From positions 1 to 63,359 of the IMG/VR virus record IMGVR_UViG_3300023179_000108: a stretch of DNA of 63,359 bases; one strand, written 5' to 3'. Each line of letters opens with the position of its first letter. Within the stretch, counting starts at the first letter, position 1. Below are positions 13,251 through 63,359 of this stretch, piece after piece. This stretch comes from a virus. The position numbers and the translations under genes were made by a program. Below the pieces are notes generated by a model, which saw only the letters and a list, made by a program, of their open reading frames with translations, did not search any database and had not been told where the DNA came from.

Positions 13251-13496
13251 ATGAAACAAATTAATGAAGTTAAAAGAATGCAGCAATTAGCTGGTGTTTT
13301 AAAAGAAGAAGATACTTGGGCGGATGCAGCTAGAGAAGAGGCTATAGATGGTATTATAAAAAATATGAAACAAGAAGTGCAAGATTTAATAAGAATGCAA
13401 TATGGTGACACTGCAGAGGGTGTTTTAGATAGAGTTAAAAAAGAATTAAGCATGCATCAATTTGAAGTACCTGATACAGAGGATCTTCCTTTTTAA
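13251..13496 (+). CDS. small acidic protein with N-terminal leader-like helix, 81 aa
   Basis: Begins MKQINEVKRMQQLAGVLKEE, an amphipathic helix ending in Lys-Glu-Glu that resembles the leaders seen on proteins of the 49-63 kb region. The rest is helical and acidic. With its late-type box, this suggests a virion or head-internal protein (inference). Confidence 0.65.
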   Translation: MKQINEVKRMQQLAGVLKEEDTWADAAREEAIDGIIKNMKQEVQDLIRMQYGDTAEGVLDRVKKELSMHQFEVPDTEDLPF

Positions 13497-48885: not shown

Positions 48886-49191
48886 ATGCCAGTAACACAT
48901 ACAGGACCATTTACAGTATCATTTAAAAACTCACATACTATTAATGAGTTCGAGGTTCGTTGCTTAGTTGAGGAAAGTGATTTTAATTTATCTTATAATC
49001 CAACTTTAGTAACTAATTATGCCAGCGGTTCTGTAAAAGACTTTGCTACTGGTTCTAGTTTTTATACTTATGCTACATCATTAGGTTTATATAATGATAA
49101 TAATGAATTAATGGCTGTAGCTAAATTTGGTAAACCTATGCTTATATCACCAGACACAGATATGACTTTTGTTGTAAAATATGACACATAA
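48886..49191 (+). CDS. small virion protein, 101 aa
   Basis: Essentially the C-terminal module of the 45998 protein: SLGLYNDNNELMAVAKFGKP with the same FDLSYNPT-like lead-in. A stand-alone copy of the module, possibly capping or trimerising the fibre. Overlaps the next start by 1 nt. Confidence 0.7.
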   Translation: MPVTHTGPFTVSFKNSHTINEFEVRCLVEESDFNLSYNPTLVTNYASGSVKDFATGSSFYTYATSLGLYNDNNELMAVAKFGKPMLISPDTDMTFVVKYDT

Positions 49192-49841
49192 TGATTAAAT
49201 TATTAGACATATTAAAAGAGATAAATATTAAGCAAAAAATAGCAATAGGTAGTGGAGACCAACAATCAGTATACCCTTATTTAAAAGATCCAAATTATGT
49301 TATAAAAAAATTTGATTCACAGCAGGATCAACCTGTTCTTAATAGATATGAGATAAAATATTACCTTAAAATGTTAGAACTATATCCAAAATATATAGCT
49401 AATATTATAATTCCGGATGGAAATATAAAATATTATTTTCAAGAAAAAGTAGATGTAAAAAAAGCACAAGAAGATATATGGGATGTTGTTATAAAAATAA
49501 TAAAAAAAGTAGCATTAGATTTAGAAAAAAAATATAAAACACCAAATGAAGTATATAATGATTTAGTTGCTGTGGATATATTTAATAATGCTAGCAGTTG
49601 GGAAGATATAAAAAATATAAAAGATATAGATGATTTCTTTGAAATTAATTATGGTGAAGGAATACCAATGGATGATTTATTCAACAACTATATTTATAAT
49701 AATTACTCTAAAGATATACCTCTAGTACAAAAATTAAAACCAGTTTGGGATATAGGTAAAAAAATAACTCAATTTGGATCATTTCATGAAGATAATTTAG
49801 GATATGATAAAGATGGTAATTTTAAAATAATAGATCTTTAA
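49191..49841 (+). CDS. kinase-like protein with N-terminal leader, 216 aa
   Basis: Begins MIKLLDILKEI, the leader shared by several proteins downstream. Then IAIGSGDQQSVYPYL resembles a Gly-rich loop and VIKKFD carries a candidate ATP-binding Lys. The end FHEDNLGYDKDGNFKIIDL holds H199-x-D201-N202 and D215, like the catalytic and Mg-binding residues of kinase/aminoglycoside-phosphotransferase folds. It stops one residue after D215, so there is no C-lobe beyond the activation start. Kinase activity is inference. The leader suggests packaging in the head. Confidence 0.6.
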   Translation: MIKLLDILKEINIKQKIAIGSGDQQSVYPYLKDPNYVIKKFDSQQDQPVLNRYEIKYYLKMLELYPKYIANIIIPDGNIKYYFQEKVDVKKAQEDIWDVVIKIIKKVALDLEKKYKTPNEVYNDLVAVDIFNNASSWEDIKNIKDIDDFFEINYGEGIPMDDLFNNYIYNNYSKDIPLVQKLKPVWDIGKKITQFGSFHEDNLGYDKDGNFKIIDL

Positions 49842-49847
49842 CATGTT

Positions 49848-50279
49848 ATGACACATAAATGGAAATATTGGGATCGTTTTGAACCTGAAAATTATTATGG
49901 TTTTGTTTATAAAATTACCAATTTAAAAACTGGAAAGTTTTATATTGGGAAAAAATCGTTTTATCATAACAAAAAACATAAGCTCACTAAAAAACAACTT
50001 ACTGAACAAACAGGCCGCGGTCGTAAACCTACTCATGAAACAATTCAAGTTGAAAGCGATTGGAAAACATACTGGGGTTCTAATAAGCAATTAATAGCTG
50101 ATATTAAAGAACTAGGTGAAGATAAATTTGATTGTACTATCTTAAAATTATGTAAGACCAAAAAACAACTTACGTATTGGGAAATGCACCATCAATGTCT
50201 GAGTCAATGTATAGTTAGTTATGATTTAAGTTATAATGACAATATATTAGGTAAATTCTTTCCTAAAGACTTGGTTTAG
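49848..50279 (+). CDS. GIY-YIG-like endonuclease
   Basis: 143 residues. GFVYKITNLKTGKFYIGKKS carries the GIY (here F-V-Y) and YIG halves; WKTYWGSNKQL and the Glu in YWEMHHQ supply later conserved positions. Resembles Seg-type or free-standing phage homing nucleases. Confidence 0.78.
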   Translation: MTHKWKYWDRFEPENYYGFVYKITNLKTGKFYIGKKSFYHNKKHKLTKKQLTEQTGRGRKPTHETIQVESDWKTYWGSNKQLIADIKELGEDKFDCTILKLCKTKKQLTYWEMHHQCLSQCIVSYDLSYNDNILGKFFPKDLV

Positions 50280-50300
50280 GCAAACTAATATCATATATTT
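50279..50300 (+). promoter_or_regulatory. early-type promoter for the primase operon
   Basis: GGCAAACTAATATCATATAT, overlapping the TAG of the endonuclease; an early-class promoter inside the late region. Confidence 0.5.
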
Positions 50301-50306
50301 CCTTTA

Positions 50307-51248
50307 ATGGAAAATACAGCTTTATTATTTCTGATTGAATCAGTACTAGGTAAGGGACAATCTACAAGTAAAGGTAACTACGCATTTAAATGTCCATTCT
50401 GTACTCATCATAAAAATAAATTAGAAATTAATTTAAATACAACATCAAAACGTGAAAACTTTTGGCATTGTTGGATATGTGGAGCTAAAGGAAAAACATT
50501 ACTTACTTTATTTAAAAAAATAAAAGTATCTAATAATAAAATAAGTGATTTAAATATATTAATTGTTCCTACTAAAAAGGAAGAACATATTCCTATTAGT
50601 ACTATTGAATTACCTAAAGAATTTATTTCATTATCACGTTCCATAGAAGATAAAGTTGCTCAAATTGAAGCAAAACATGCTTTAAGATTCCTAAAAAAAC
50701 GAAATATATCATCAGATGATATTATAAAATATAATATTGGTTTTTGTAAAGAAGGAAAATATGAGTATCGTGTTATTGTTCCTTCATATGATGAACAAGG
50801 CAAATTAAATTACTTTATAGCGCGTGACTATAAAGAACCATCACTTCAAAAATATAAAAATCCACCCGTATCGGCTAAAGACGTAATCGGGTTTGAGCTA
50901 TACATAAATTGGGATGCACCTATTATTCTTGTTGAAGGAATATTTGATGCTCTCACCATTAAACGAAATGTTATTCCTTTATTTGGTAAAGTAATACATG
51001 GTAAACTAATGGAAAAACTAGTTAAATCTTCTGTAGATAGAATTTATATTGCTTTAGATAATGATGCTAGACGTGATGCTTTGAAACAAGCTGAAATGTT
51101 GATGTCGTATGGTAAAGAAGTATATTTGGTTGAAATGGAAGGTAAAGACGCTAATGAAATAGGTTTTGAACAATTCTTTAAAACTATCGAGCAAACATAT
51201 CCTCTAAATCTTCAAAGTTTGCTTGAAAAAAAATTACAATTAATATGA
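50307..51248 (+). CDS. DNA primase (DnaG/gp61-like)
   Basis: 313 residues. Zinc finger C29-x2-C32...C55-x2-C58 (CPFC, CWIC), a catalytic core, and a Toprim domain with ILVEGIFDAL (Glu210) and IALDNDARRD (Asp251, Asp253). Makes RNA primers on the lagging strand. Shorter than DnaG, without a helicase-binding C-terminus. Preceded by its own early-type promoter. Confidence 0.9.
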   Translation: MENTALLFLIESVLGKGQSTSKGNYAFKCPFCTHHKNKLEINLNTTSKRENFWHCWICGAKGKTLLTLFKKIKVSNNKISDLNILIVPTKKEEHIPISTIELPKEFISLSRSIEDKVAQIEAKHALRFLKKRNISSDDIIKYNIGFCKEGKYEYRVIVPSYDEQGKLNYFIARDYKEPSLQKYKNPPVSAKDVIGFELYINWDAPIILVEGIFDALTIKRNVIPLFGKVIHGKLMEKLVKSSVDRIYIALDNDARRDALKQAEMLMSYGKEVYLVEMEGKDANEIGFEQFFKTIEQTYPLNLQSLLEKKLQLI

Positions 51249-52027
51249 TTGAAAAAAATGTAAATATACTTAAAGATCCTAAGATCAAACGTATAATTGA
51301 ACACAACGAACAAGACAAACAAATAAATGTTTTAGATTCACGTTTTTATAAGCGTAATGAAAAATATTATCCATCTGTTACTTCTATTTTAAATTATTTT
51401 CCTAAAAATAAATTCTTTCATGAATGGCTTAAAGACGTAGGACATAACAGTGATATTATAGCCGCTAAAGCATCTGCTGAAGGTACTCAAGTACATAATG
51501 CTGTTGATAGATTTTTAAATGGAGAAGAAATTCAATGGATAGATGAATATGGACACGCTATATATTCACTTGAAGTTTGGAAAATGATTTTAAAATTTGC
51601 TGAGTTCTGGAATACACATAAACCTGAACTTATAGCTACAGAATATCATTTATTCTCAGATAGCCATGAATATGCTGGTACTGCTGATTTAATAGTCAGG
51701 TTAAATAATCAAGTTTGGTTACTTGATGTTAAAACATCAAATTCACTTCATACCTCCTATGATTTACAGTTATCAGCTTATGCTGTTGCTTGGAATGAAA
51801 CACACAATACACTTATTGAGCGCACAGGTATTATATGGTTAAAAGCAGCTACTCGTGGTGAAGGTAAAGGTGATTCAATTCAAGGTAAAGGATGGCAACT
51901 AAAACCAATAGACGGTATAGCTACTAATTTTAAAATGTTTCAAAATATATATGAAATATATAAACTTGAAAATCCAGATTTTAAACCTATGACTGAGTTA
52001 TTACCTACGTCGGTCAAAGTATCTTAA
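51245..52027 (+). CDS. RecB-like PD-(D/E)XK exonuclease
   Basis: 260 residues. His84 in GTQVHNAVDRF, Asp148 in GTADLIV, Asp161-x-Lys163 in LLDVKTS and LQLSAYAVAW (Gln175, Tyr179) are the motifs of Cas4/RecB nuclease domains. No helicase part. Probably acts on DNA ends in replication or recombination. Start overlaps the primase stop by 4 nt. Confidence 0.85.
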   Translation: MIEKNVNILKDPKIKRIIEHNEQDKQINVLDSRFYKRNEKYYPSVTSILNYFPKNKFFHEWLKDVGHNSDIIAAKASAEGTQVHNAVDRFLNGEEIQWIDEYGHAIYSLEVWKMILKFAEFWNTHKPELIATEYHLFSDSHEYAGTADLIVRLNNQVWLLDVKTSNSLHTSYDLQLSAYAVAWNETHNTLIERTGIIWLKAATRGEGKGDSIQGKGWQLKPIDGIATNFKMFQNIYEIYKLENPDFKPMTELLPTSVKVS

Positions 52028-52040
52028 GTATATTTATTTG
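52028..52040 (+). promoter_or_regulatory. late-type promoter box
   Basis: GTATATTTATTTG, immediately before the GTG start; leaves almost no leader, so this may not be a working promoter. Confidence 0.3.
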
Positions 52041-52041
52041 T

Positions 52042-52731
52042 GTGAATCAACAAATAACAATAGTGATTCCTTGTAAAAACGAAGGTGAAGGAATTGTAGA
52101 TGTTATCAAATTAATATTAAAACAAATAAATTGTAAAATAATAATAGCAGACTCTTCAGATGATGAAGAGTCTATTTTATTATTGCATAAATATATTTCA
52201 TTACATTCAAATATACAAGTTATAAAAGGTGGATTACCATCAGTAGCTCGTAATAATGGAGCTAAATTAGTAACTACTCCTTATGTATTGTTTTTAGATG
52301 CTGACATTTATATATATAAGAAAAATTTAATAAGAAAATGTATTAGGTTAGCAATTCAAAATAACTATGATTTAGTTACTTGTAAATTTAAAACTGATAA
52401 ACCTTATAGATGGGTATTTAGAATATTTAATATAATACAATGGTTTAGTTTATTAACTAAACCTTTTGCTTTAGGTGGTTTTATGTTATTTAAAACAGAA
52501 ACATTTAATAAACTAAAAGGATTCAATGAACAAGATAAAGTTGCTGAAGACTACAGGCTTAGCTCAAAAATTAAATCTAAAAAATTTAAAGTGTTTAATG
52601 GTTATGTATATACTCCAAGTAGAAGATTTGATAAAAAAGGTGTATGGTATATGATTAAATTAATGTGGAAATCTTGGATTAATCAAAATAATGATAAATT
52701 TTTTGAGAATGATCAAAATTACTGGAAATAA
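52042..52731 (+). CDS. glycosyltransferase family 2
   Basis: 229 residues, GTG start. ITIVIPCKNEGEGIVDVIKL, then IIADSSDD, VARNNGAK and FLDADIYIYKKNL (metal-binding D-A-D) are classic GT2 blocks; VAEDYRLSSKI supplies the ED motif. A hydrophobic stretch (FRIFNIIQWFSLLTKPFALG) may bind membrane. Likely modifies a surface lipid or polysaccharide. Confidence 0.85.
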   Translation: MNQQITIVIPCKNEGEGIVDVIKLILKQINCKIIIADSSDDEESILLLHKYISLHSNIQVIKGGLPSVARNNGAKLVTTPYVLFLDADIYIYKKNLIRKCIRLAIQNNYDLVTCKFKTDKPYRWVFRIFNIIQWFSLLTKPFALGGFMLFKTETFNKLKGFNEQDKVAEDYRLSSKIKSKKFKVFNGYVYTPSRRFDKKGVWYMIKLMWKSWINQNNDKFFENDQNYWK

Positions 52732-52734
52732 AGT

Positions 52735-53481
52735 ATGAAAAAATATCAAACAATTATTGTCTCTGATTTACATTTAGGAATAAAAGATAGTAAAGCAGAA
52801 GAATTTATAGAATTCATTGAAAATTATTCTACTGATTTATTAATACTAAATGGTGATATTATAGATGGATGGGCTATTAATAGAGGAAGTAAATGGAAAA
52901 AACATCATACTAAAGTAATATCTAAATTATTAAAATTATCAAATAAAACAAAAATAATTTGGATTAGAGGAAATCATGATGAATTTATACAAGAATTTAT
53001 AGGATCTTATTTTGGTGGTATTGAAATTAGAGAAGATTATCGATTACAATATTATGAACATGTTGAATACGATATTTGGAAATCAAAATGTTATTATATA
53101 TTTCATGGAGATATAATTGATATTTTTATAACAAAATATAAATGGTTATCAAAATTAGGAGCAATTGGATATGATTTTGCATTATGGTTAAATAGATGGT
53201 ATAATACTTACCGCAAATGGCGTAAATTACCATACCAATCAATTTCACAAAAAATTAAAGCAGGTGTGAAGACAGCTACTAATTATATTAACGATTTTGA
53301 AACTACTGCTCTCTCTATGGCAAACAAAAACGGCTGTGATGGCGTAATTTGTGGACATATACATCAACCAGAAGACAGAATAATAAATGGTAAACGATAT
53401 TTAAATAGTGGAGATTGGGTTGAAAATATGAGTGCTATACTTATAGATAAAAATGGAAAAATAGAAATTTATAAAAAATAA
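52735..53481 (+). CDS. metallophosphoesterase, LpxH/UDP-diacylglucosamine hydrolase-like
   Basis: 248 residues. SDLHLG (Asp11, His13), LNGDIIDGW (Asp41), RGNHDEF (Asn80, His81), FHGD and CGHIHQPE. The order and the WINRxY-type middle (FALWLNRWYNTYRKW) match LpxH-like hydrolases acting on UDP-2,3-diacylglucosamine. Next to the glycosyltransferase, it suggests that the phage alters lipid A or a related envelope glycolipid (inference). Confidence 0.82.
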   Translation: MKKYQTIIVSDLHLGIKDSKAEEFIEFIENYSTDLLILNGDIIDGWAINRGSKWKKHHTKVISKLLKLSNKTKIIWIRGNHDEFIQEFIGSYFGGIEIREDYRLQYYEHVEYDIWKSKCYYIFHGDIIDIFITKYKWLSKLGAIGYDFALWLNRWYNTYRKWRKLPYQSISQKIKAGVKTATNYINDFETTALSMANKNGCDGVICGHIHQPEDRIINGKRYLNSGDWVENMSAILIDKNGKIEIYKK

Positions 53482-53484
53482 ATT

Positions 53485-53610
53485 ATGTATAAGATTTTAG
53501 ATACACTGTTTAACTTTAATTCAAATAAAAAAATAGACTTTGAAAAAGGTGTTTATTGGGGAATAATCACATTTATTTCTTTATTATTGTTTTTTTCATA
53601 TATACTATAA
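53485..53610 (+). CDS. small membrane protein, 41 aa
   Basis: MYKILDTLFNFNSNKKIDFE then GVYWGIITFISLLLFFSYIL: one C-terminal membrane helix. Last gene before a terminator. Confidence 0.55.
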   Translation: MYKILDTLFNFNSNKKIDFEKGVYWGIITFISLLLFFSYIL

Positions 53611-53622
53611 ATTTATTGTTTT

Positions 53623-53635
53623 AAATATTTATAGG
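53623..53635 (+). promoter_or_regulatory. late-type promoter box
   Basis: AAATATTTATAGG directly before the hairpin at 53634. Confidence 0.4.
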
Positions 53636-53669
53636 TGGCTTGGTTTGTCCAAGTCACCTATTTATTTTT
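53634..53669 (+). terminator. hairpin, probable terminator
   Basis: GGTGGCTTGG-TTTG-TCCAAGTCACC then TATTTATTTTT; could alternatively be a stable 5' leader hairpin of the 53676 mRNA if the box just upstream is its promoter. Confidence 0.6.
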
Positions 53670-53675
53670 ACAACA

Positions 53676-55076
53676 ATGAATTTAGGACAATACTTAGTAC
53701 AACAGTTATTAGAGGATAATATACAAGAAGTATACCCAAAGCGTTCTTCAGATGACATTAATCAAAATTATGTAACTAAAAAAGAACATTGGATTGAAAA
53801 AGCAGCTGCTGACTTTAATTATCCAATACCAGATATACGTTTTGCTTTTATAGCGGGAGGTATGGTAGTGTTAACTGATGATATTTGGTCTAAATTAGAA
53901 AATCAAGACTTAGAAGATGATTTAGAACTTGATGGTCCAGCAATGGTATTAAATTATGATGATGATAAGTATTATTTAGTATATGGAGGTAATTTATTAA
54001 GAAAACATAAAGAATTAAATAAAATACCTAAAGTATTAATGGGTAAACTTAATGTTAAAGGTCCTAAACCATTTCCATTAAAAGAAGGATTAGATAAAGA
54101 TACATTAAACTCATTTTTAAAATTTGCAATTAAAGAATTAGGATTAAAACAGTTACCTTCAAAGATTACTTTATCTAAAAACGTTAAAAAAGCAAGAGAA
54201 CGCCATACATTTGGTACATTCAATTCTGAAAATAAAAGCATTTGGTTATACACTAACAACAGAAATACAGCTGATATTTTAAGAACATTAGCTCATGAAT
54301 TAGTACATCGTAAACAAGAGGAAGATGGTAGATTAAAACCTGATAGTGGTGAAACAGGTTCTGAAATTGAAAATGAAGCTAATGCTAAAGCGGGTGTATT
54401 GTTAAGAAAGTTTGGAGAAAAAAATCCAATGATATACGAGGGAATGTATGGTAATTACTTATTTGGAGATAAAAATACAGGAGCTGCTATTGGTTGGTAT
54501 GAGAATGAAATGGAATCTGATACTCCTGCTGAGAAAAAATTATTTAATATCCTAAAAAAATATACCGATTCAGAATATGAAACTTACTCAGCTGTAAATT
54601 TGGATGATTTTATCCCTATTTTTAAAAAATTAAAAAACCAATATCCTGAAATAGTAGATCCTAAATTATCATCTAATACCTACATTTATAGAGGTACTAG
54701 TTTACCAAAAGAACAAATAGATAAATTAAATGCTGAGATAAAAGATACAACATATTATAAACAAGGATATATTATTCCTAATCAAACGTATAAGTCTAGA
54801 AGAAAAGCCCAATCGTGGAGTATTAATTATTTTACAGCTTCAGGATTTGCTTTTACAAGTGCTGAAAAAAAAGGAGGAGTACCTGTTATAATGAGAGCAA
54901 AAGTATCAGATGCTGATTTATATTTTAATTCAAAATTTATAGACAAATTAAGCACTCAAGCAGAAGATGAAACTTTCAATATAGTTAACCCAATTCCAGT
55001 AGATATTATGGTTATGGAATTTTATGAAGATGAATTTGAAGATATAGAAGCAGGATATTTACATACTAAAAAATAA
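53676..55076 (+). CDS. metallopeptidase-ADP-ribosyltransferase fusion with leader-like N-terminus, 466 aa
   Basis: Start at 53676; the frame is open from 53640 but that part runs through a hairpin. N-terminal NLGQYLVQQLLEDNIQE is a leader-like helix. Residues 40-125 are a small unknown domain. Residues 140-245 carry HELVH (207-211) with downstream E230/E232/E234, the signature of a zinc metallopeptidase. Residues 254-450 carry an ART layout: YIYRG (Arg339), QSWSINYF (Ser380-Trp-Ser382) and EDE (430-432), the R-S-E pattern. This half is homologous to the 62005 protein (EGMYGNYLFGD against EGIFGDYLFAD). ART enzymes attach ADP-ribose from NAD to targets. The fusion is unusual. Host targets are unknown. 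Confidence 0.75.
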   Translation: MNLGQYLVQQLLEDNIQEVYPKRSSDDINQNYVTKKEHWIEKAAADFNYPIPDIRFAFIAGGMVVLTDDIWSKLENQDLEDDLELDGPAMVLNYDDDKYYLVYGGNLLRKHKELNKIPKVLMGKLNVKGPKPFPLKEGLDKDTLNSFLKFAIKELGLKQLPSKITLSKNVKKARERHTFGTFNSENKSIWLYTNNRNTADILRTLAHELVHRKQEEDGRLKPDSGETGSEIENEANAKAGVLLRKFGEKNPMIYEGMYGNYLFGDKNTGAAIGWYENEMESDTPAEKKLFNILKKYTDSEYETYSAVNLDDFIPIFKKLKNQYPEIVDPKLSSNTYIYRGTSLPKEQIDKLNAEIKDTTYYKQGYIIPNQTYKSRRKAQSWSINYFTASGFAFTSAEKKGGVPVIMRAKVSDADLYFNSKFIDKLSTQAEDETFNIVNPIPVDIMVMEFYEDEFEDIEAGYLHTKK

Positions 55077-55080
55077 TGTT

Positions 55081-55665
55081 ATGAGCGAATCAATGTTACA
55101 ACGTGAATTTCGTGAACGTGATGTTCAACGAATGAGAAATATAATCACTAAAAATGCTGATGCTAAAACAGTAACACAAGTTGGTTATACTAAAAAACAA
55201 ATAGAATATAATGAAGGCGATATTTGGGAAGAAAACGGCAAACAGTGGATTATTAAAAATGGTATAAAACAGACTGTTACTCGTTTTGATAAGTTAAAAA
55301 AATCAATCATATTACCTATTACATGCCCTAAATGTAATAAAGCAATGAAGGCAACATCATTAAATAAAAAGATGTGGCCTATTCATGGCACCTGTTTTGA
55401 TTGTGTCATTGAAATGGAAACTGAGTTAAAACGTCAAGGTAAGTTTGAAGAATATGCTCGCAATTTAGTTAATCGAGGTGTTAAAACTCATATTAAAGAT
55501 GTTGAAGACTTAATTTTAGAAATAGCATTAGAAGACAATAATGAAGAATTTGTTACTGAACAAGGTGATATTGAAAAATGGGCTGGTAAAGGTATTGATA
55601 AACAAAAAATAATACAAGAATTACAAGAATATATAGCTAAACTTAAAGACCATATCTCTTCATAA
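55081..55665 (+). CDS. zinc-ribbon protein, 194 aa
   Basis: N-terminal SESMLQREFRERDVQRMRNI helix, then ITCPKCNKAMKATSLNKKMW...CFDCVIEME, a C-x2-C...C-x2-C ribbon at about 86-117, and a helical acidic C-terminus. I recall similar proteins in T4-like environmental phages without a function. Possibly a structural or assembly factor. Confidence 0.68.
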   Translation: MSESMLQREFRERDVQRMRNIITKNADAKTVTQVGYTKKQIEYNEGDIWEENGKQWIIKNGIKQTVTRFDKLKKSIILPITCPKCNKAMKATSLNKKMWPIHGTCFDCVIEMETELKRQGKFEEYARNLVNRGVKTHIKDVEDLILEIALEDNNEEFVTEQGDIEKWAGKGIDKQKIIQELQEYIAKLKDHISS

Positions 55666-55675
55666 TATTTATAGG
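55662..55675 (+). promoter_or_regulatory. late-type promoter box
   Basis: ATAATATTTATAGG, overlapping the end of the 55081 gene. Confidence 0.5.
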
Positions 55676-55697
55676 CAATTAACTATTAAAATGAAGT

Positions 55698-56000
55698 ATG
55701 GAATCAAATAACATTTGGTCAGTAATAATTACAGCTATAACTATTTTAGGAGGTAGTACAGCATTTCGTTTTTATGAACAAAGAGCACAAAAAAGAGAAA
55801 GAGATGAAGATTTTATTAGACATGACTGTAAAGATAGAATCGCTAAGTTAGAAGCACTTTTAGAAGAATCATCTGAAGAAAAAAACGAACTACGCAACTT
55901 AATTATAAAATTAACAGCTGAAGTAGCTGAACTGCGAGTTAAAGTAGAATACTTATCTGAAGAAAACGCTAAATTAGAAAAAGCATTCAAACCAAAATAA
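55698..56000 (+). CDS. membrane-anchored coiled-coil protein, 100 aa
   Basis: One N-terminal membrane helix (IWSVIITAITILGGSTAF) and a long Glu/Lys coiled coil to the end. The topology of an i-spanin or a holin accessory; it lies two genes before an amidase, so a second lysis cassette is possible. Confidence 0.65.
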   Translation: MESNNIWSVIITAITILGGSTAFRFYEQRAQKRERDEDFIRHDCKDRIAKLEALLEESSEEKNELRNLIIKLTAEVAELRVKVEYLSEENAKLEKAFKPK

Positions 56001-56001
56001 C

Positions 56002-56238
56002 ATGCATAAATTATTAGATCTTATAAATGAAGCCAAAGAAGGACCCATTGAATACCCCGCTAACCATAAGCCAGGCATGCGTGTAACTAAGGGTGGTTCA
56101 ATGTGTGCTAACTGTGAGTATTGGGTTGAGAAAGGTAACTTATGTAATAACAAATATTGGTTAAAATGGAGAAATGGTGATGCTAAAATACCTGCTCCTG
56201 CAGATGAATACTGCTGTAACTGGTGGCATGCAAAATAA
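56002..56238 (+). CDS. Cys-rich HiPIP-like protein with leader, 78 aa
   Basis: Leader MHKLLDLINEAKEG, then MCANCEYWVEKGNLCNNKYW and APADEYCCNWW: five Cys in an order like high-potential iron-sulfur proteins, as seen in several phage families. It may bind an iron-sulfur cluster or zinc. The leader suggests head localisation. Confidence 0.65.
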   Translation: MHKLLDLINEAKEGPIEYPANHKPGMRVTKGGSMCANCEYWVEKGNLCNNKYWLKWRNGDAKIPAPADEYCCNWWHAK

Positions 56239-56244
56239 TATTTT

Positions 56245-56907
56245 ATGAAAGTAACACAAGTACCCTTTTCAGCTGATCAATACATTAAAGAAGAACATAA
56301 AAAAACTCAAATATACCTCCATCACACTGCAGGTAATGCAAATCCAATTGCTGTTTTTAATGATTGGGGAGCAAATAAAGAAAGAATAGCAACATGCGTT
56401 ACTATAGGTGGAAAACCGGGTGTTAGTAAAGGATGGATAGACGGAGAAGTAGCTCAAGGATTTAGCTCTAAGTATTGGGCTTATCATTTAGGTCTTAAAG
56501 AATCTACATTTCAAAAATATGGAATAACATATAGATCGTTAGATAAAACTTCAATTGGAATTGAAATATGTAATTGGGGTCAATTAACATATAAGAATGG
56601 TAAGTTTTTTAATTATGTTAATAGAGAAGTCCCTAAAGATGAAGTAGTAGAATTACCTGTTGCTCATCGTGGATTTAAATTTTACCATGCTTATACAGAT
56701 GCTCAAATAGCAACTGTACAAGAATTACTCACATCATGGAAAAACCACTATAATATCCCTATCCATTATAACCCAGACATTTGGGATATAACGCCTAGAG
56801 CGTTAAGAGGTGAGCCCGGAGTATACACTCATAACTCAGTTAGAATAGATAAAGTGGATGTATCACCACAACCAAGATTAATTGAAATGCTTAAATCATT
56901 ACCATAA
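56245..56907 (+). CDS. N-acetylmuramoyl-L-alanine amidase (Amidase_2)
   Basis: 220 residues. IYLHHTAGNANP (His26/His27), WAYHLGLKE, SIGIEICNWG and KFYHAYTDAQIATVQELL are the blocks of zinc amidases that split the stem peptide from muramic acid. No signal peptide. This is the third peptidoglycan hydrolase in the window; as it lies in the late cluster it may be virion-associated. Overlaps the next ATG. Confidence 0.88.
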   Translation: MKVTQVPFSADQYIKEEHKKTQIYLHHTAGNANPIAVFNDWGANKERIATCVTIGGKPGVSKGWIDGEVAQGFSSKYWAYHLGLKESTFQKYGITYRSLDKTSIGIEICNWGQLTYKNGKFFNYVNREVPKDEVVELPVAHRGFKFYHAYTDAQIATVQELLTSWKNHYNIPIHYNPDIWDITPRALRGEPGVYTHNSVRIDKVDVSPQPRLIEMLKSLP

Positions 56908-57542
56908 TGGAAAATAAAGAATTATTAATCGAAGACTGTGGATGTAATGGTCCTCAACTCATAAACGAATCTAAAGGTATGATATTATCTGAAGGTTTAA
57001 TATACCATCTTAAAGAAGGTAGAATGTTAATTAATAACATATATCGTCCTTTATCTGAAAATTATTTTGCTTTATTTCGTGAAGCACGTGAATTATATAA
57101 TAAAGGATTACTTTCAGTAACCGAAGATGATGCTGAATTGTTAGAATCAAACATTGGTGAATTTGGAATATATAATGGTATAAGAGTACCTTTAGATTAT
57201 GTTATTAGCTTAGACGAGTTAATATCATTAACTGAGGCTAAAGAATTAAAAGAAGCAGATAAAAAGAAAAAAACACCTCCAATCGGTAAACCAAAACGTG
57301 GCGGTTCAAAGAAATTTTACGTTTATGTTCGCAAACCAGGTGGTGGAATTAAAAAAGTATCATTTGGTGATACAACAGGATTACGTGCTAAAATAAATAA
57401 TCCAAAAGCTAGACAAGCCTTTGCTAAAAGACACAAATGTGCTCAAGCTAAAGACAGAACAACAGCGCGTTATTGGAGTTGTAGGCTTCCCAGAATAGCA
57501 AAGTCTTTAGGTCTTAAAACTAATTATTCCGGTTATTGGTAA
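56907..57542 (+). CDS. conserved T4-like phage protein with basic C-terminal domain, 211 aa
   Basis: N-terminal half is acidic. C-terminal KRGGSKKFYVYVRKPGGGIK, KVSFGDTTGLRAKINNPKAR, QAFAKRHKC and ARYWSCRLPR are blocks I recall as highly conserved in marine T4-like phages (DUF5872-like). The basic domain may bind nucleic acid and could be packaged. Function unknown. Confidence 0.72.
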   Translation: MENKELLIEDCGCNGPQLINESKGMILSEGLIYHLKEGRMLINNIYRPLSENYFALFREARELYNKGLLSVTEDDAELLESNIGEFGIYNGIRVPLDYVISLDELISLTEAKELKEADKKKKTPPIGKPKRGGSKKFYVYVRKPGGGIKKVSFGDTTGLRAKINNPKARQAFAKRHKCAQAKDRTTARYWSCRLPRIAKSLGLKTNYSGYW

Positions 57543-57558
57543 GGAAATCGGCCTCCCC

Positions 57559-57569
57559 AATATTTATAG
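57559..57569 (+). promoter_or_regulatory. late-type promoter box
   Basis: AATATTTATAG upstream of 57581. Confidence 0.5.
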
Positions 57570-57580
57570 TAAATATAAAT

Positions 57581-58207
57581 ATGGCATACGTTTATCTTGT
57601 AACTAATATAATTAATAATAAAAAATATATTGGATCCTCTAGAAAAGAAAATATAGATCCTCATTATTTTGGAAGTGGTAAAAGAATAAGAAAAGCTTTA
57701 CAAAAATACGGTAAAGAAAATTTTAAAAAAGAAATACTGTGGGAAGGTAAAGGAGATGCTAGAGATATAGAAGCATATTGGTTAAAACATTTTGATGCTT
57801 CTTCTAATCCTCAATTTTATAATATGACTAATGATGCTAGAGGAAATGGATTTCATAAAGAAGAAACCAAAAAAACTGTTAGTGAAAAACTAACAGGAAG
57901 AAAATTTTCAAAAGAAATTTGCGAAAAAATATCTAAAGCAAAACTAGGTAAACCCAACCCCAAAAAAGGTAAATTAGACGGTCCTAAACCAGGAGTAACA
58001 GCTGCTCATAAAGGTAGAATTAGTCCTAATAAAGGTAAAGGAAAACAAGTAGCTTTATATACTGTTGAAGGAAAATATATTAAAACCTACTCTAATTACT
58101 ATGAATTAGCAATTGATTTACAAATAAACCCAGAAACAGTAAGATGTCAACTTATTGGGAAAGCACAAACTATTAAAAATAAACAATATAAAGCTGAATA
58201 TTTATAA
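57581..58207 (+). CDS. GIY-YIG homing endonuclease with NUMOD motifs
   Basis: 208 residues; start at 57581 after AAATATAAAT rather than 57536. YVYLVTN (3-9) and KYIGSS (15-20) give the GIY-YIG core. SEKLTGRKFSKEICEKISKA and later Lys-rich repeats are NUMOD3-type DNA-binding modules, and VALYTVEGKYIKTYSNYYEL looks like NUMOD1. Typical free-standing homing nuclease inserted between structural genes. Confidence 0.9.
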   Translation: MAYVYLVTNIINNKKYIGSSRKENIDPHYFGSGKRIRKALQKYGKENFKKEILWEGKGDARDIEAYWLKHFDASSNPQFYNMTNDARGNGFHKEETKKTVSEKLTGRKFSKEICEKISKAKLGKPNPKKGKLDGPKPGVTAAHKGRISPNKGKGKQVALYTVEGKYIKTYSNYYELAIDLQINPETVRCQLIGKAQTIKNKQYKAEYL

Positions 58208-58210
58208 TAT

Positions 58211-58471
58211 ATGAAGCCATACACCGACATTGAAACTACATCCGAATACACTATACGTGAATTCGATGAAAATATAGACCCTGTTGAATTGCTTTGGCAT
58301 CGCGACGATGAAAATCGTACAATAGAAATTATAGGAAAAACTAATTGGCAAGTACAACTTGACAATGAATTACCAACATCATTAAATAAGTCTATATTTA
58401 TACCAAGACACTGCTGGCATAGAGTAATTAAAGGTAGTGGTAAATTGCAATTAAAGATCTATAAATCGTGA
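58211..58471 (+). CDS. cupin-like small beta-barrel protein, 86 aa
   Basis: VELLWHRDDENRTIEIIGKT, NWQVQLDNELP, IFIPRHCWHRVIKGSGKLQL: a cupin-like pattern with His/Arg positions conserved in many T4-like phages. Function unknown. Its TGA overlaps the GTG start of the next gene. Confidence 0.72.
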   Translation: MKPYTDIETTSEYTIREFDENIDPVELLWHRDDENRTIEIIGKTNWQVQLDNELPTSLNKSIFIPRHCWHRVIKGSGKLQLKIYKS

Positions 58472-58887
58472 TCAAACTAACCGACATATTAAAAGAAATA
58501 CTATTAGAAGATCGCTGCAAACGCATTGCTGATCGCCGCTATAGTAAACCATCAGCATACAAATCAGGTGCTATTGTAAGATGTCGTAAAGGTGATATTT
58601 GGAAAGGAATTAAATCTGAAGCGTTTTTCATTGGTGAAGATGATATTGATCAACTAACTGAAAAACAAAAAGAAACTCTCCGCACCTGGTTTAAACGCAA
58701 AGGCGCTCCCGGCAAAACAGGCGGTTGGGTTGATTGTAATACATGCCGTGAAGTAGATGGGAAGAAAAAATGTAAACCATGCGGCAGACAAAAAGGTGAA
58801 AAACGAGCTAAATACCCATCATGTCGCCCAACACCATCACAATGTGGTGACCCAGGCAAAGGTAAATCATGGGGGAAAACAAAATAA
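58468..58887 (+). CDS. leader-bearing Cys-rich basic protein, 139 aa
   Basis: GTG start; GTG overlaps the upstream TGA. Leader MIKLTDILKEILLED, then AIVRCRKGDIWKG, LRTWFKRKGAPGKTGGWVDC, CKPCG and YPSCRPTPSQC. The Cys/Arg-rich half resembles DUF5872-type phage proteins, perhaps zinc-binding. Leader and basic character suggest a DNA-associated internal head protein (inference). Confidence 0.7.
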   Translation: MIKLTDILKEILLEDRCKRIADRRYSKPSAYKSGAIVRCRKGDIWKGIKSEAFFIGEDDIDQLTEKQKETLRTWFKRKGAPGKTGGWVDCNTCREVDGKKKCKPCGRQKGEKRAKYPSCRPTPSQCGDPGKGKSWGKTK

Positions 58888-58888
58888 T

Positions 58889-58898
58889 AATATTTATA
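58889..58898 (+). promoter_or_regulatory. late-type promoter box
   Basis: AATATTTATA upstream of 58918. Confidence 0.5.
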
Positions 58899-58917
58899 CA
58901 TATAAAACTATAATCAA

Positions 58918-59337
58918 ATGACAATTAATGAAATACGTCAAGCAGTTAGAGAAGTAATTGCTGAAGCAAAAGAAAAAGGACTACCCAAAAGTGGTGGTAA
59001 ATTAGTGCATCTTAAAAAAGAATTAAAGAGTTTAAAAGCAATGAAAGAATCATTAGCTCAATACTCAATTAATGAAAACATTAGCGAACCTGTAGTTGAG
59101 TTTGCTCATTTACAGCGCTTTGTTAATGAAATGGCTAAAATTAAAGCTGCTCATGGTAAATTAGCTGAAATGTTAGATAGTCAAATTACCGAAGTAGAAA
59201 GTAAAGTAACAGCTGAAACTCAAAAGATTAAAGAAATGATTGGTTTAGTTGAACCACAAGCTGAAGCTAAAAAGAAAAAATCAGCTAAGAAAAAAGAAGA
59301 ACCTAAAGAAGATAAGGAACCTAAAAAAGGCAAATAA
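58918..59337 (+). CDS. leader-bearing helical protein with Lys-rich tail, 139 aa
   Basis: TINEIRQAVREVIAEAKEKG leader-like helix, a long helical middle and a KKKKSAKKKEEPKED tail. Not recognised; the shape suits a scaffold-like or internal head protein. Stop and next ATG overlap by 1 nt. Confidence 0.65.
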   Translation: MTINEIRQAVREVIAEAKEKGLPKSGGKLVHLKKELKSLKAMKESLAQYSINENISEPVVEFAHLQRFVNEMAKIKAAHGKLAEMLDSQITEVESKVTAETQKIKEMIGLVEPQAEAKKKKSAKKKEEPKEDKEPKKGK

Positions 59338-59711
59338 TGGAAAACGCCATCATAGGTCAATTCGTTTCTGCTTTAATGGCGTCTCGTACGCAAGCTCATA
59401 TTTATCATCTTCAAACACCATCGTTTGCTGCTCATAAAGCATTAAATGAATACTACGATAATATTGTAGATATAATTGATGGGTTAGTTGAATCATATCA
59501 AGGTAAATATGGTATCATTACTGGTTATAGTAATGTAGCCTTACAAGAATATCAAAGTTGTGATGGTATTATTGCTTATTTCACTACATTATGTATGTTT
59601 GTTGAAAAAACTAGATCAATGATAACCCAAGATTCATACATTCAAAATCAAGTTGACGAAGTAGTAGCTGAAATTAATTCTTTACTTTACAAATTAAAAT
59701 ATTTAAAATGA
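59337..59711 (+). CDS. DUF5856-like helical protein, 124 aa
   Basis: [40 protein letters not shown] and ESYQGKYGI: a conserved helical block in T4-like environmental phages that looks like a four-helix, Dps/ferritin-like bundle. No activity known. Start and end overlap both neighbours. Confidence 0.72.
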
Positions 59712-60364
59712 TAAAATTACTTGACTTATTAGAGAAAAAAATGACTCCCGCTCAAAAGAAAAAGCGCGGGGAAATATTTGATAAACTCAAAGCATCAGGC
59801 ATGTCTGACGCTAAAGCAGGAGCTATTGCTACTTCTCGCGCTATGAGTGAAGATTTAGACCCTATAGGTCAAGAAGATGATGATATAAATAACGATGGTA
59901 AAGTTAATAAAACAGATAAATATTTAGCTGCTCGTCGTAAAGCAATATCTAAAGCAGTACAAAAAGAAAATCTAGATCCTGAAGAAATATGGTCTAATTT
60001 AAGTAATGAAAAAAGAGCAAAAATACTAAGAAAAGTAATTTATGGAGCAGAGAACATGCCTCTTTATAGATCATTAGCTGCAAACACGGCTACTTTAGAT
60101 AATCTATCTCCAAAAAATGTACAAAGCATATATAGCTATCTTATAAATAATACTTTAAATAAGTCTTTAAATGAAGGTGATCATGAAGTATCAATGGCCC
60201 AATCTAGTTTAAAAGCAATTGCTAAAGCAGCCCTTGAATTATCTCAAAAATTAGGAACAGTTGAACGTAACATACCTGGTTGGATTCAAGATCATATAGC
60301 TAAAGCTGAAAACTATATTGAGCAAGCAGCTCAAGGTTTTCATGAATTAAAAAACGATGAATAA
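59708..60364 (+). CDS. leader-bearing protein with EF-hand-like motif, 218 aa
   Basis: Leader [36 protein letters not shown], an EF-hand/dockerin-like [20 protein letters not shown] (near 57-76) that may bind calcium, and a C-terminal helical block [20 protein letters not shown] conserved in T4-like phages. Probably internal to the head or core. Confidence 0.7.
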
Positions 60365-60878
60365 ACAATTATTATTAGAAAAATACATTAAAGTTGCTGT
60401 TCGCAAAGCTCTTGCTGAACAAGAAGAAAGAGAAAAGAAGGCAACTAAAGCTATGTATCTTGTATATCGCTTTCCCGGATTAAAGAAAGTTATGGAAGAT
60501 CTAATGTCTCCTACTTTTGGTCGTTTTATTAGCGATGTTAAAATAATAGCACCAAAACCAACTACGTTTACTGCTAAGTTAATAAACGAGCAAGATTTTA
60601 ATATTATATATGATGGTAAAAAGAATTTCACTGTTAAAGTAGCAGGGAAAAAATATAATATGCAAAACTTAGGCGAATTAGAAAGAGCACAACAAGCAAT
60701 CGCAAACGTGTTAGAATTAAATTATGCTATTGCTGAGGGAGAAGGTAAAGGAGCACCTGCTCCTGATGCTGGAGCCGAAGCATTTACTGCTACTTCAAGT
60801 GCTCCAGAAACAACACCAGCAGAAGAAACCCCACCAGCAGAAACACCAGCTGAAGAAACACCACCCGCTGAAGCCTAA
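60357..60878 (+). CDS. leader-like protein with Pro-Glu-rich tail, 173 aa
   Basis: [20 protein letters not shown] leader-like helix, a middle alpha/beta domain ([20 protein letters not shown]) and a C-terminal [20 protein letters not shown] low-complexity tail. Virion-associated by position. Not recognised. Confidence 0.65.
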
Positions 60879-60881
60879 ACA

Positions 60882-61946
60882 ATGACAGTTACTGATATAC
60901 TTACAGAATGGTCTTATAGATGCCCAGATGGTATAGTTGATTTAAAGGATCCTATTAAAATAAACATATTGAATGAAATACTAAAAGAAATAGGATTTCA
61001 AGAAACTATAGAAGAAGCTATGTCACCTAGAAAAGAAGCCATAGACATTTTAATAAGTAAATATAAAAATGAATTAGGCCCTCATAGTCGTCCTGGACGA
61101 ATAAAAAATATAGGTAATAAACTAACACCTGACGAATTCAAAAAAAGAATAGAAAATACAGATGTATTTAATAATCCTAAAGTAGAAAAAATAGACGCTG
61201 GCGATTCTAGAAATCCAAGCATGAGTAATCCTGCATTTAAATTTGAATATAAAGGTCAAAACATAATAATTGTTTTAGGAAGAGAAGCTCCTGGTCTAGA
61301 AGCTGAAAAGCAACAAGTAGATAAAATAAACAGTTTTATTCAAAGTATTGAAGGTGGAATAAATATAAAAATAAAGGATAAAATATACTATAATATCAAA
61401 TCAGCTAAACTTGATCTTAAAAATAAACACGCTGATATAATATTAGAAGGGGATGAAAATATTTATATTCAATATAAAGATGCCAACGAAGCAGATGAAT
61501 TTCAACAGTATTCTGGTATAGAAAAATTTAAAAGTGAAACTATTGTTAGGGACTTTATAGATGAAGTTCCTTCTAGCGGAGTAAAAAAAGGTGAAATGTA
61601 TAAAAGAAAAATTCCAAAAGGTAATTTATACAATCGGGGTATATTTGGAATTGGTAATTCTGAAGGAGATAAAGTTCAAATAGTATGTATAGGACCTATA
61701 CAAATAGAAAAAGAAGGTAATTATTACACTATAAAAGGAAGTACTGTTACTTTAATAGATGGAAGCCCAATTCCTGAAGATTATCAACCTTACTTAGGAG
61801 CAAGATATGCTTCTGATAGAAATCAAGAAGATAAAAGCCATACCCGATTTGGAATATACCCAGAAAAATATATTAAAAAGTTTAAAAATCCAACACAAGA
61901 AGAACCAACACTAGAAGAAATACTTTTTTCTTTAAGGGCAAAATAA
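60882..61946 (+). CDS. nuclease-like protein with conserved phage N-terminus, 354 aa
   Basis: TVTDILTEWSYRCPDGIVDL is a conserved N-terminal block of T4-like phage proteins, followed by another leader-like helix (INILNEILKEIG). The middle has KHADIILEGDENIYIQYKDA: Asp, then a strand with Gln-x-Lys, compatible with a PD-(D/E)XK-type site; this is tentative. The C-terminal part is a beta domain. Its last codons overlap the duplicated promoter at 61937. Confidence 0.6.
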   Translation: MTVTDILTEWSYRCPDGIVDLKDPIKINILNEILKEIGFQETIEEAMSPRKEAIDILISKYKNELGPHSRPGRIKNIGNKLTPDEFKKRIENTDVFNNPKVEKIDAGDSRNPSMSNPAFKFEYKGQNIIIVLGREAPGLEAEKQQVDKINSFIQSIEGGINIKIKDKIYYNIKSAKLDLKNKHADIILEGDENIYIQYKDANEADEFQQYSGIEKFKSETIVRDFIDEVPSSGVKKGEMYKRKIPKGNLYNRGIFGIGNSEGDKVQIVCIGPIQIEKEGNYYTIKGSTVTLIDGSPIPEDYQPYLGARYASDRNQEDKSHTRFGIYPEKYIKKFKNPTQEEPTLEEILFSLRAK

Positions 61947-61998
61947 ACTTCGTACTTTTAAAGCATGAATATATTTTATATCAACCACGATCCAATCT
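61937..61998 (+). repeat. direct repeat copy A: promoter plus gene start
   Basis: GGCAAAATAAACTTCGTACT through ATGAATATATTTTATATCAA to CCAATC; matches 62997-63059 apart from a few bases. Confidence 0.9.
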
Positions 61999-62003
61999 TG
62001 TAA
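61965..62003 (+). pseudogene. 12-codon duplicated start of the 63025 gene
   Basis: Reads MNIFYINHDPIL then stops, against MNIFYINQDPII at 63025. A cut-off copy lying 1 nt ahead of the ART gene; may act as a translated leader. Confidence 0.8.
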
Positions 62004-62004
62004 G

Positions 62005-62994
62005 ATGATTAAATTGATAGATATATTAAAAGAAGGAATATTTGGAGATTACTTGTTTGCAGATGAAAAATCTGGGGTAGAATATGGACTTTACGATAAA
62101 GAATTAGAAAAAGATACTCCTGAAGAATATAAACTATTTCAAGATTTAAAGTTATATGCTGCAGGCGGAGATTTTGAGGATATTAGTTTAGATAAACATG
62201 CTAGTTTATTAAAACAACTTAAAAAAGAATACCCTTCTTTTATTAAAACAAATTTATCTCCTGAAGATTACATATATAGAGGTACAGTTATTTTTAAAGA
62301 TAAATTAATTGATTTAATAAAAGAAAAAAAAATCATAAAAAATAAAGCATCTTATACTGTTTCTAATATTCCATACACTTCTAAAAAAATAATATCATCA
62401 TGGTCTTCTAATTTCTTTGCAGCTCATGATTTTGCTTATGAAACTCTTTTAAGAAAAAAAAATAATAACTTTATCCCTGCAGTTTTAAGAGTTAAAGTAA
62501 AAGAAGCAGATGTTTATTTTAAAGATGATTTTTTTGTAAAAATAAGTGATAATCAAGAATGGGAAGTTTTAAATATGAAACAACCTATAAATGTGGATAT
62601 GGTAATTCAAAGAAGAGATATCAATAATATAAAAATACGAGATAAAAATGAACTTTCTTTTGCAGAAGAATTAGCTATAAAAAGAATTAAAGATTATATA
62701 AAACAACCTGATTATTATTTATATATTAGTAATCTTCCTATTAATGAAATACCAAAAGAATTAAAGTTAGTAAAAGATGATTTTTTTGCTGATAATACTC
62801 CTATAAAATCATTACCTGATAATTTAGAAGTACAGGGAGATTTATATTTAAGATACTCTGCTATTAATATTTTACCTAAAAATCTAAAAGTTAAAGGAAA
62901 TTTAAATTTAGAAGGTACCCCTTTATCTAAAAAATATTCTCAAGAAGAACTAAAAAAATTACTTCCTGGTGTTGGAGGAGAAATTATAACTTAG
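62005..62994 (+). CDS. ADP-ribosyltransferase-like protein with leader and leucine-rich-like repeats, 329 aa
   Basis: Leader MIKLIDILKEG, then EGIFGDYLFAD (shared with the 53676 protein). ART pattern: YIYRGT (Arg92), SSWSSNFFAAHDFAYETLL (Ser132-Trp-Ser134) and QEWE (Glu185, Glu187), fitting the R-S-E class. Residues 238-305 are leucine-rich-like repeats (LPINEIPKELKLV, IKSLPDNLEVQGDLYLR, INILPKNLKVKGNLNLEGTP), which could bind a host target. T4 Alt is a packaged ART that modifies host RNA polymerase; a similar role is inference. The gene is flanked by a direct repeat. Confidence 0.75.
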   Translation: MIKLIDILKEGIFGDYLFADEKSGVEYGLYDKELEKDTPEEYKLFQDLKLYAAGGDFEDISLDKHASLLKQLKKEYPSFIKTNLSPEDYIYRGTVIFKDKLIDLIKEKKIIKNKASYTVSNIPYTSKKIISSWSSNFFAAHDFAYETLLRKKNNNFIPAVLRVKVKEADVYFKDDFFVKISDNQEWEVLNMKQPINVDMVIQRRDINNIKIRDKNELSFAEELAIKRIKDYIKQPDYYLYISNLPINEIPKELKLVKDDFFADNTPIKSLPDNLEVQGDLYLRYSAINILPKNLKVKGNLNLEGTPLSKKYSQEELKKLLPGVGGEIIT

Positions 62995-62996
62995 AA

Positions 62997-63059
62997 GGCA
63001 AAATATTTTTTATACTTTTAAAGTATGAATATATTTTATATCAATCAAGACCCAATCAT
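62997..63059 (+). repeat. direct repeat copy B: promoter plus gene start
   Basis: GGCAAAATATTTTTTATACT through ATGAATATATTTTATATCAA; the probable original copy, since the gene behind it is intact. Confidence 0.9.
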
Positions 63060-63359
63060 CGCAGCACAACAATTAGCCGATGACCACATTCGCAAAATGC
63101 AAATCGAATCAGCTCAAATGTGCTGTACAACACATTGGGCAGTAGGTTCACAAGCACCATATAAACGTGCTCATTTTAATCATCCCTCAACAATTTGGAC
63201 TCGCCAATCAATTCAACACTATCGTTGGCTTGTACAACATGGTCTTGAAATTTGTAATGAATTTACAAAACGTTATGGTAAACACCATAAAACACAAAAT
63301 GTACTTGAATGGTGTCGTGACAATGAACCTAATATACCTGATAATGGATTTACTCCTCC
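63025..63359 (+). CDS. conserved phage protein of unknown function, 3' end outside the window
   Basis: 111 codons visible. MNIFYINQDPIIAAQQLADD, HIRKMQIESAQM, FNHPSTIWTRQSIQHYRWLV and KRYGKHHKT are blocks of a family common in large phages, where the first residues and the His/Trp positions are conserved. I do not know its function. The promoter is early-type (GGCAAAATA, TACTTTTA). Confidence 0.75.
   Translation, partial: MNIFYINQDPIIAAQQLADDHIRKMQIESAQMCCTTHWAVGSQAPYKRAHFNHPSTIWTRQSIQHYRWLVQHGLEICNEFTKRYGKHHKTQNVLEWCRDNEPNIPDNGFTP

Follow-up and report, generated by a model that had tools for sequence, protein, structure and literature searches.

A putative head-loading leader on a predicted ADP-ribosyltransferase with leucine-rich repeats in an IMG/VR virus record

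The gene analyzed here, 62005, is named after its first base in a virus record of IMG/VR with a length of 63,359 bases (IMGVR_UViG_3300023179_000108), which is called the window in the following. It is on the plus strand, as are the other features at 49191-63357 of the window whose coordinates are given below. An earlier note, made from the sequence alone, had proposed an open reading frame at positions 62005-62994, and this frame exists, with the ATG at 62005, the stop codon at 62992-62994, and a product of 329 aa. The model of the whole protein contains two domains (predicted local distance difference test, pLDDT, of 75). The protein begins with a leader of ten residues, MIKLIDILKE (62005-62034), a putative capsid-targeting propeptide with a predicted cut after E10, between LKE and G. 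The leader is followed by a predicted domain with an ADP-ribosyltransferase (ART) fold at residues 11-201 (62035-62607), and by a predicted helix cap and leucine-rich repeats (LRRs) at residues 216-329 (62650-62991).

The ART domain has a paralogue in the window, residues 252-446 of the protein encoded by gene 53676 (54429-55013). The earlier note had called residues 11-210 and 254-466 of the two proteins homologous, and the pairwise alignment is significant and has nearly that range: BLASTP aligned residues 7-201 of the 62005 protein with residues 252-446 of the 53676 protein (130 bits, E value 7e-39, 37% identity and 56% positives over 198 aa). The blocks named as shared (EGIFGDYLFAD versus EGMYGNYLFGD, RG, SWS, and E-x-E) are real and aligned, and include YIYRGT, SWS, and EWE/EDE. 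A scan of IMG/VR with the single ART sequence retrieved no relatives, an alignment of the two sequences retrieved ART relatives on nine other contigs, and a wider alignment only re-found the same contigs. In each case the protein is longer and the ART follows a metallopeptidase-like region. Because three of the nine (L004, L005, and L006) are identical across this protein, seven relatives are distinct, and together with the two window sequences they form an ART alignment of nine rows. Invariant columns number 44, including R82, SWS122-124, E175, and E177 in alignment numbering. In the 62005 protein, the motifs invariant in all nine domains are R92 of YIYRGT (motif 1, 62278-62280), S132-W-S134 (motif 2, SxS, 62398-62406), and the two glutamates of E185-W-E187 (motif 3, ExE, 62557-62565). 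R, S-x-S, and E-x-E thus follow one another in the order of the R-S-E clade of ARTs (described by Iyer et al. 2017; PMC5512222), to which Alt/VIP2, Vis, and C3-like enzymes belong. The identity of the 62005 ART to its relatives is 37-42%, and no relatives were found in annotated phage records or in the genome contigs searched.

The fold on which the earlier note depended was recovered in the model, where residues 11-206 adopt an ART fold of the split beta-sandwich type (pLDDT 82 and predicted template modeling score 0.81 for the domain modeled alone). The best structural match by VIA-align is the ADP-ribosyltransferase Vis of Vibrio splendidus (4xzj; Z 7.3, root mean square deviation 3.5, 142 aligned residues, 13% identity), a weak score without a detected sequence relation, and Vis is also in the first rank of Foldseek (E value 8e-3, probability 0.97). 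Further VIA-align matches are Tpt1/KptA (Tpt1 6.6), HopU1 (4.8), pertussis toxin (4.8), SpvB, and others, and nearly all of the rows listed are ARTs or Tpt1 by title. Two rows, 9k3a_B and 6aqk, could not be classified from their titles; the former is a chain of the cyanophage A4 pre-ejectosome, and residues 1419-1609 of this injected protein (Z 3.5) may correspond to an unrecognized ART-like domain. The scores speak for caution, as every VIA-align Z is below 8 and no Foldseek match in the PDB has an E value below 0.001, and sequence searches of Pfam, PHROGs, NCBIfam, and the PDB with the ART yielded nothing above threshold and no known family. In spite of these modest scores the ART assignment is well supported, because nearly all fold matches belong to one superfamily and the catalytic motifs agree with it. 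A match to the PBECR3 nuclease (Pfam PF18812) was rejected: it reached 23.9 bits with the whole protein and 26.9 bits with a fragment at a cut-off of 30, straddles the end of the ART and the LRR cap, and is absent from all eight other ART rows.

The rank of the Tpt1/KptA structures next to Vis raises the question whether the domain is a Tpt1/KptA-like enzyme that ADP-ribosylates RNA or nucleotides instead of a protein. However, the Tpt1 matches comprise about 80 residues, compared to 142 for Vis, an ExE motif is characteristic of R-S-E ARTs that modify proteins, and protein binding is the usual role of LRRs. A non-protein target is therefore the least probable of the alternatives discussed here, and an ART that modifies a protein is the reading followed below.

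The earlier note had also seen leucine-rich-like repeats behind the ART, and structure prediction of this region agrees. Residues 214-329 of the model have an LRR fold, with VIA-align Z scores of 12.0 to 8z5u_0, 10.5 to SHOC2, and 9.5 to SspH1. LP/IP-xxL units occur at residues 249, 270, and 290, and the region comprises approximately 3.5 units, each about 20 residues long; homologues of the LRR are present in the related records G005, G006, and G009. Very probably, then, residues 11-206 form an ART fold and residues 216-329 an LRR fold, as judged from the models. The bacterial LRR effectors SspH1 and IpaH and phage LRR proteins (Edwardsiella phage Edno5) share the LRR fold with LP-xxL units, but in contrast to SspH1 and IpaH, the 62005 protein is devoid of an E3 ligase domain and its LRR is joined to an ART. 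The metallopeptidase is absent from the 62005 protein, as had been noted: it contains no HExxH motif, whereas the 53676 protein has one at residue 207.

The leader of 62005 is of a type, MIKLxDILxE, that opens five genes of the window. The other four encode a kinase-like-looking protein (49191-49841; leader MIKLLDILKE, 49191-49220), a small Cys-containing protein (56002-56238; MHKLLDLINE, 56002-56031), a DUF5872 protein (58468-58887; MIKLTDILKE, 58468-58497), and a protein at 59708-60364 with a leader of the same type (59708-59737). Leader genes were also found in each of the seven related records examined. A strict leader pattern starts 31 of the 906 predicted genes in the eight records, compared to one of 2,915 internal methionine positions, which is itself a leader with the start set too far upstream, and the core motif occurs at three of 166,521 body positions. 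When more start sites are allowed, the eight records contain 35 leader genes. Although the pattern itself required no glutamate, 31 of these 35 have an [LIM]xE whose glutamate is residue 9 or 10, versus 27 of the 875 other genes. One match (G004 38406, MHKLCDMLNS) looks like a chance hit and was dropped from the leader profile, but kept in the count of 35. After removal of the leader, 32 bodies fell into 16 groups.

The same picture emerged at the DNA level. A leader DNA pattern had two matches in the window and none in each of 100 shuffles, and a degenerate pattern for MIKLxDILxE matched at least 120 stretches in IMG/VR, while the same codons in permuted order matched four in the whole collection. 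Among these matches, the 80 loci listed carry 100 pattern matches; each of the 100 begins an open frame of no fewer than 40 residues, and in 84 cases a stop codon lies in frame no more than 15 codons upstream. The bodies of these loci form at least 50 cargo groups, 36 of which are singletons. Judged by eye, with no family search made, they include LRR, AAA-type, Nudix, HAD-phosphatase, exonuclease, M23-like, and kinase-like starts. The leader is almost certainly a portable N-terminal tag on dozens of unrelated proteins, and tells more about the 62005 protein than its other parts do. Kinase-like-looking leader proteins (LGSGTESTVY) occur in the window (49191-49841), in L057 (9215-9862), and in L091 (404), without Pfam support above the cut-off. 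No printed account of a MIKLxDILxE-type leader was found in the open-access literature searched, where the papers on the term capsid targeting sequence, judged by title and abstract, concern T4, P1, P22, SPN3US, or uses of T4.

Leader, ART, and LRR also occur in other combinations. The IMG/VR locus L107 encodes a leader and an ART without LRR, and hhalign aligned it with the profile of the ART family (A2; E value 5e-9, probability 95.9), with R, SxS, and ExE in register. The family of this ART comprises six loci (L192-L197), one of which is the L107 contig itself; L194-L196 are alike at their N- and C-termini. Five of the six have the leader MI[KR]LxxLL[KR]E, while L197 has a second type that ends with LQKIAGILKE, and in both versions the body starts directly after the glutamate. 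Conversely, a leader with an LRR but without an ART is present in G005 (560-1336) and in a group of four among the 80 IMG/VR loci. Because leader-ART and leader-LRR proteins both exist, the three parts are separable modules. A second copy of the exact ART-LRR fusion is absent from the retrieved relatives. The ART profile had no match in 27 further leader-bearing contigs, which are those of at least 40 kb among the 80 loci, and a motif search for more ART-like leader cargo found only 62005 and L107 among 222 leader-type frames. Neither Pfam nor PHROGs confirmed the ART-looking starts at G009 106252, G008 28917, and G007 30020. Other leader proteins with ART-like-looking starts, which have no Pfam or PHROGs family, are at L041 11252-11893, L057 9917-10333, and L046 11020-11403 (YIYRSQ, YHFTNSS, and AYHDSN).

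The second leader type, [RK]xQ[KQ]LAG[IL], occurs 15 times within the first 30 residues and three times deeper in nine genomes. With the ending xxE it is present on many proteins, e.g., in the window (13251-13496), in the G005-G009 pieces, and in Flavobacterium phage immuto (vB_FspM_immuto; 111675), a cultured relative in which genes with [LI]xE leaders occur. In G009 this type is also found between the genes for protease and capsid. The immuto homologue of the DUF5872 protein 58468 has another N-terminus, also with an [LI]xE at its end (ILSE).

In phage T4 the internal head proteins and gp24 have N-terminal propeptides of 10-20 residues that are capsid-targeting sequences, and the T4 protease cleaves them after a glutamate (PMC5694885). 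An N-terminal capsid-targeting address also brings foreign proteins into the T4 core (PMC9958956). The leader resembles the T4 sequences (gp24, Alt, IPI-III) in being a short N-terminal stretch that ends with xxE and is common to unrelated proteins. The gp24 start MAKINELLRE is similar to MIKLIDILKE of 62005, and the gp24 N-terminus (MAKINELLRES) ranks third among the 260 T4 proteins scored with the leader profile; Alt (MELITELFDED) ranks 18th. These 260 do not include joined genes, alternative starts, or several T4 genes of very small size. An [LI]xE within residues 3-25 is present in all ten T4 head proteins tested, versus 72 of the 250 other T4 proteins. IPII and IPIII have a common leader of their own (MKTYQEFIAEA), which is alike in design, but the consensus differs from that of the leader described here, which is spread over at least 50 cargo groups.

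Gene content indicates that the phages related to the window are T4-like. In G004, the major capsid protein has a full-length match in immuto (57%) and tblastn matches in 2,502 phage records. The relation to immuto, the sole pointer to a host, suggests Bacteroidota. A gp21-type (S77) prohead protease (PF03420) is encoded in four of ten records, including both that are larger than 150 kb, and in 15 of the 27 contigs of at least 40 kb that carry leaders; of the seven larger than 100 kb six contain it, one weakly. Leader genes lie within or adjoin the head-gene block of G004 and G009. The motifs QLVTE, QLMTE, or QIVSE near residue 60 of the G004, G008, G009, and immuto capsid proteins were not used, because they are no strict [LI]xE and the T4 gp23 cut site is not aligned there.

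Several results count against a capsid-targeting function. IPI, IPII, IPIII, gp21, gp22, gp23, gp67, and gp68 of T4 have ranks from 54 to 216 with the leader profile, and the ten T4 head proteins are enriched at a fixed offset (p 0.008), but not with a sliding one (p 0.18). The window, itself a fragment, encodes no S77 protease; the protease is also present in one of two control contigs, and while this control set is too small, it means that S77 presence alone proves little. Moreover, the leader proteins are known here from genes alone. Together with the low ranks of most T4 internal proteins, this would also suit a leader that is some other portable N-terminal element, such as a partner-binding helix, a translation-favoring start, or a stability tag, with an ART-LRR protein that is made in the infected cell. 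Such an element is also compatible with the hydrophobic moment of the decapeptide, which is reached by 19% of shuffles, so that an amphipathic-helix test was left unused. Yet several observations disfavor it, i.e., the exchange of the leader for an unrelated one that also ends with [LI]xE, the enrichment of [LI]xE in leader genes, the resemblance to the gp24 N-terminus, the gp21-type protease in the same phages, and the position of leader genes in or next to the head-gene block of G004 and G009. A leader without a capsid function is thus unlikely, though the strongest of the alternatives, and the analogy with T4 makes it likely that the leader is a capsid-targeting sequence. Because the leader is portable and resembles a T4-type capsid-targeting sequence, the proteins that carry it are probably virion cargo and not effectors made after infection. 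The earlier note had proposed modular effectors, which may have different targets. The modular architecture has stood, as leader-ART-LRR, leader-ART, leader-LRR, and metallopeptidase-ART proteins were all found, while the term effector would have to be replaced by virion cargo.

The best explanation, to which we assign a probability of roughly two thirds, is that the 62005 protein is Alt-like virion cargo, i.e., an ART that is packaged in the head, injected, and directed to its host target by the LRR. In this model, in which packaging, cleavage, injection, catalysis, and target choice are inferred, MIKLIDILKE would let the protein dock onto the core of the prohead in a T4-like phage, and the gp21-type (S77) prohead protease would cleave after LKE, so that the ART-LRR protein stays inside the head. 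At infection it would enter the host together with the phage DNA, the LRR would bind a particular host protein, and the ART would transfer ADP-ribose from NAD+ onto that protein. In the 53676 paralogue, a protein of the polyvalent type with an [LI]xE leader of its own, the same ART follows a metallopeptidase. For injection and ADP-ribosylation of a host protein by 62005, taken as a claim of its own, the balance is somewhat in favor.

The closest known parallel is Alt of T4, which is packaged in the head and injected (PMC5512222). Alt has an ART of the R-S-E type, an early [LI]xE at its N-terminus, and a T4-like head with a gp21-type protease, all of which are part of the model for 62005. It has 682 aa and no LRR was noted, whereas the 62005 protein has 329 aa with an LRR, and its packaging is a prediction. 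A further argument against the parallel is that no homology between Alt and the 62005 ART was detectable (hhalign with the A2 profile: probability 0.2, 17 columns).

Proteins that are injected with the phage DNA are known for few phages, best of all for T4. On balance, it seems rather probable that a family of T4-like phages, probably of Bacteroidota, uses MIKLxDILxE, and as a second type ...[RK]xQ[KQ]LAG[IL]xxE, as a general head-loading tag, so that any gene that gains it would become head cargo, freed at [LI]xE and injected. Because the tag is present on ARTs, on the ART-LRR fusion, on LRR-only proteins, and on kinase-, nuclease-, Nudix-, and phosphatase-like proteins, the injected set of uncultured phages could, if this is true, be read from sequence, and a searchable list of injected proteins would be available for many uncultured T4-like phages. 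The 62005 protein would combine a predicted ADP-ribosylating enzyme with a putative head-loading tag and a built-in binding domain, a design that is absent from the retrieved relatives.

The paralogue 53676 (53676-55076) has another architecture, with the leader MNLGQYLVQQLLE, a region behind it that looks ParB-like by eye, the HExxH motif, an invariant IYE (residues 253-255), and the ART. The combination of metallopeptidase and ART is found in 53676 plus nine other records; in L007 and L008 an additional N-terminal domain looks like a nucleotidyltransferase, and an immuto protein whose peptidase region is similar is annotated as nicotinamide mononucleotide adenylyltransferase. The IYE lies between metallopeptidase and ART and is invariant in all eight aligned proteins. 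Because it matches [LI]xE, cleavage there by the prohead protease might separate ART and peptidase, and thus a polyprotein cut at IYE is possible in proteins of this type. Polyvalent proteins likewise combine a zincin-like metallopeptidase with other domains and an ART. According to Iyer et al. (2017; PMC5512222), their ARTs are of the H-Y-D type, and R-S-E (Alt/VIP2) ARTs do not occur in genuine polyvalent proteins. In contrast, the ART of the 53676 family has R-S-E motifs, and this family would therefore be an exception to the published account. The 62005 protein is not polyvalent in this sense, as it has a short leader and a single ART with an LRR instead of several effector domains with a zincin-like peptidase.

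The gene 62005 is flanked by a direct repeat of 68 nt. The left copy (61930-61997) consists of the end of the upstream gene and a truncated copy of the start of gene 63025, the right copy (62990-63057) spans the stop codon of 62005 and the native start of 63025, and 56 of 68 positions (82%) are identical, compared to a best value of 43 in 199,548 random pairs from the window. The truncated copy forms a frame of 12 codons, MNIFYINHDPIL (61965-62003), which ends with TAA one base before the ATG of 62005 and perhaps couples translation to this gene. The downstream gene (63025-63357), which is cut by the window end, belongs to phrog_624 (labelled DNA binding protein; PHROGs E value 8e-41). G003 and G004 have a similar stretch before the phrog_624 gene, behind other genes, and G006 and G009 have other leader genes in this interval. 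The simplest reading is that 62005 entered a cargo hot spot and that an edge was duplicated in this process, and the repeat suggests that the insertion was recent.

The repeat scar on both flanks also fits an alternative in which 62005 is a decaying recent insertion, or its ART a dead or decoy fold with an LRR that serves for binding alone. The divergence from the relatives and the lack of an ART-LRR relative agree with this, and the ART activity is a prediction. However, R, SxS, and ExE are all retained, the frame is open across 329 codons, and the LRR is intact in the model. We regard a dead or decaying gene as improbable, slightly more so than a leader without a capsid function, and favor an active ART that is loaded into the head. 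In other phages the interval before the phrog_624 gene also differs in its leader genes (L038 3369-9361, L051 1373-4502), as at a cargo hot spot. Elsewhere in the window, at 46991-48874, a tail-region protein with long TPTPTP repeats is encoded.
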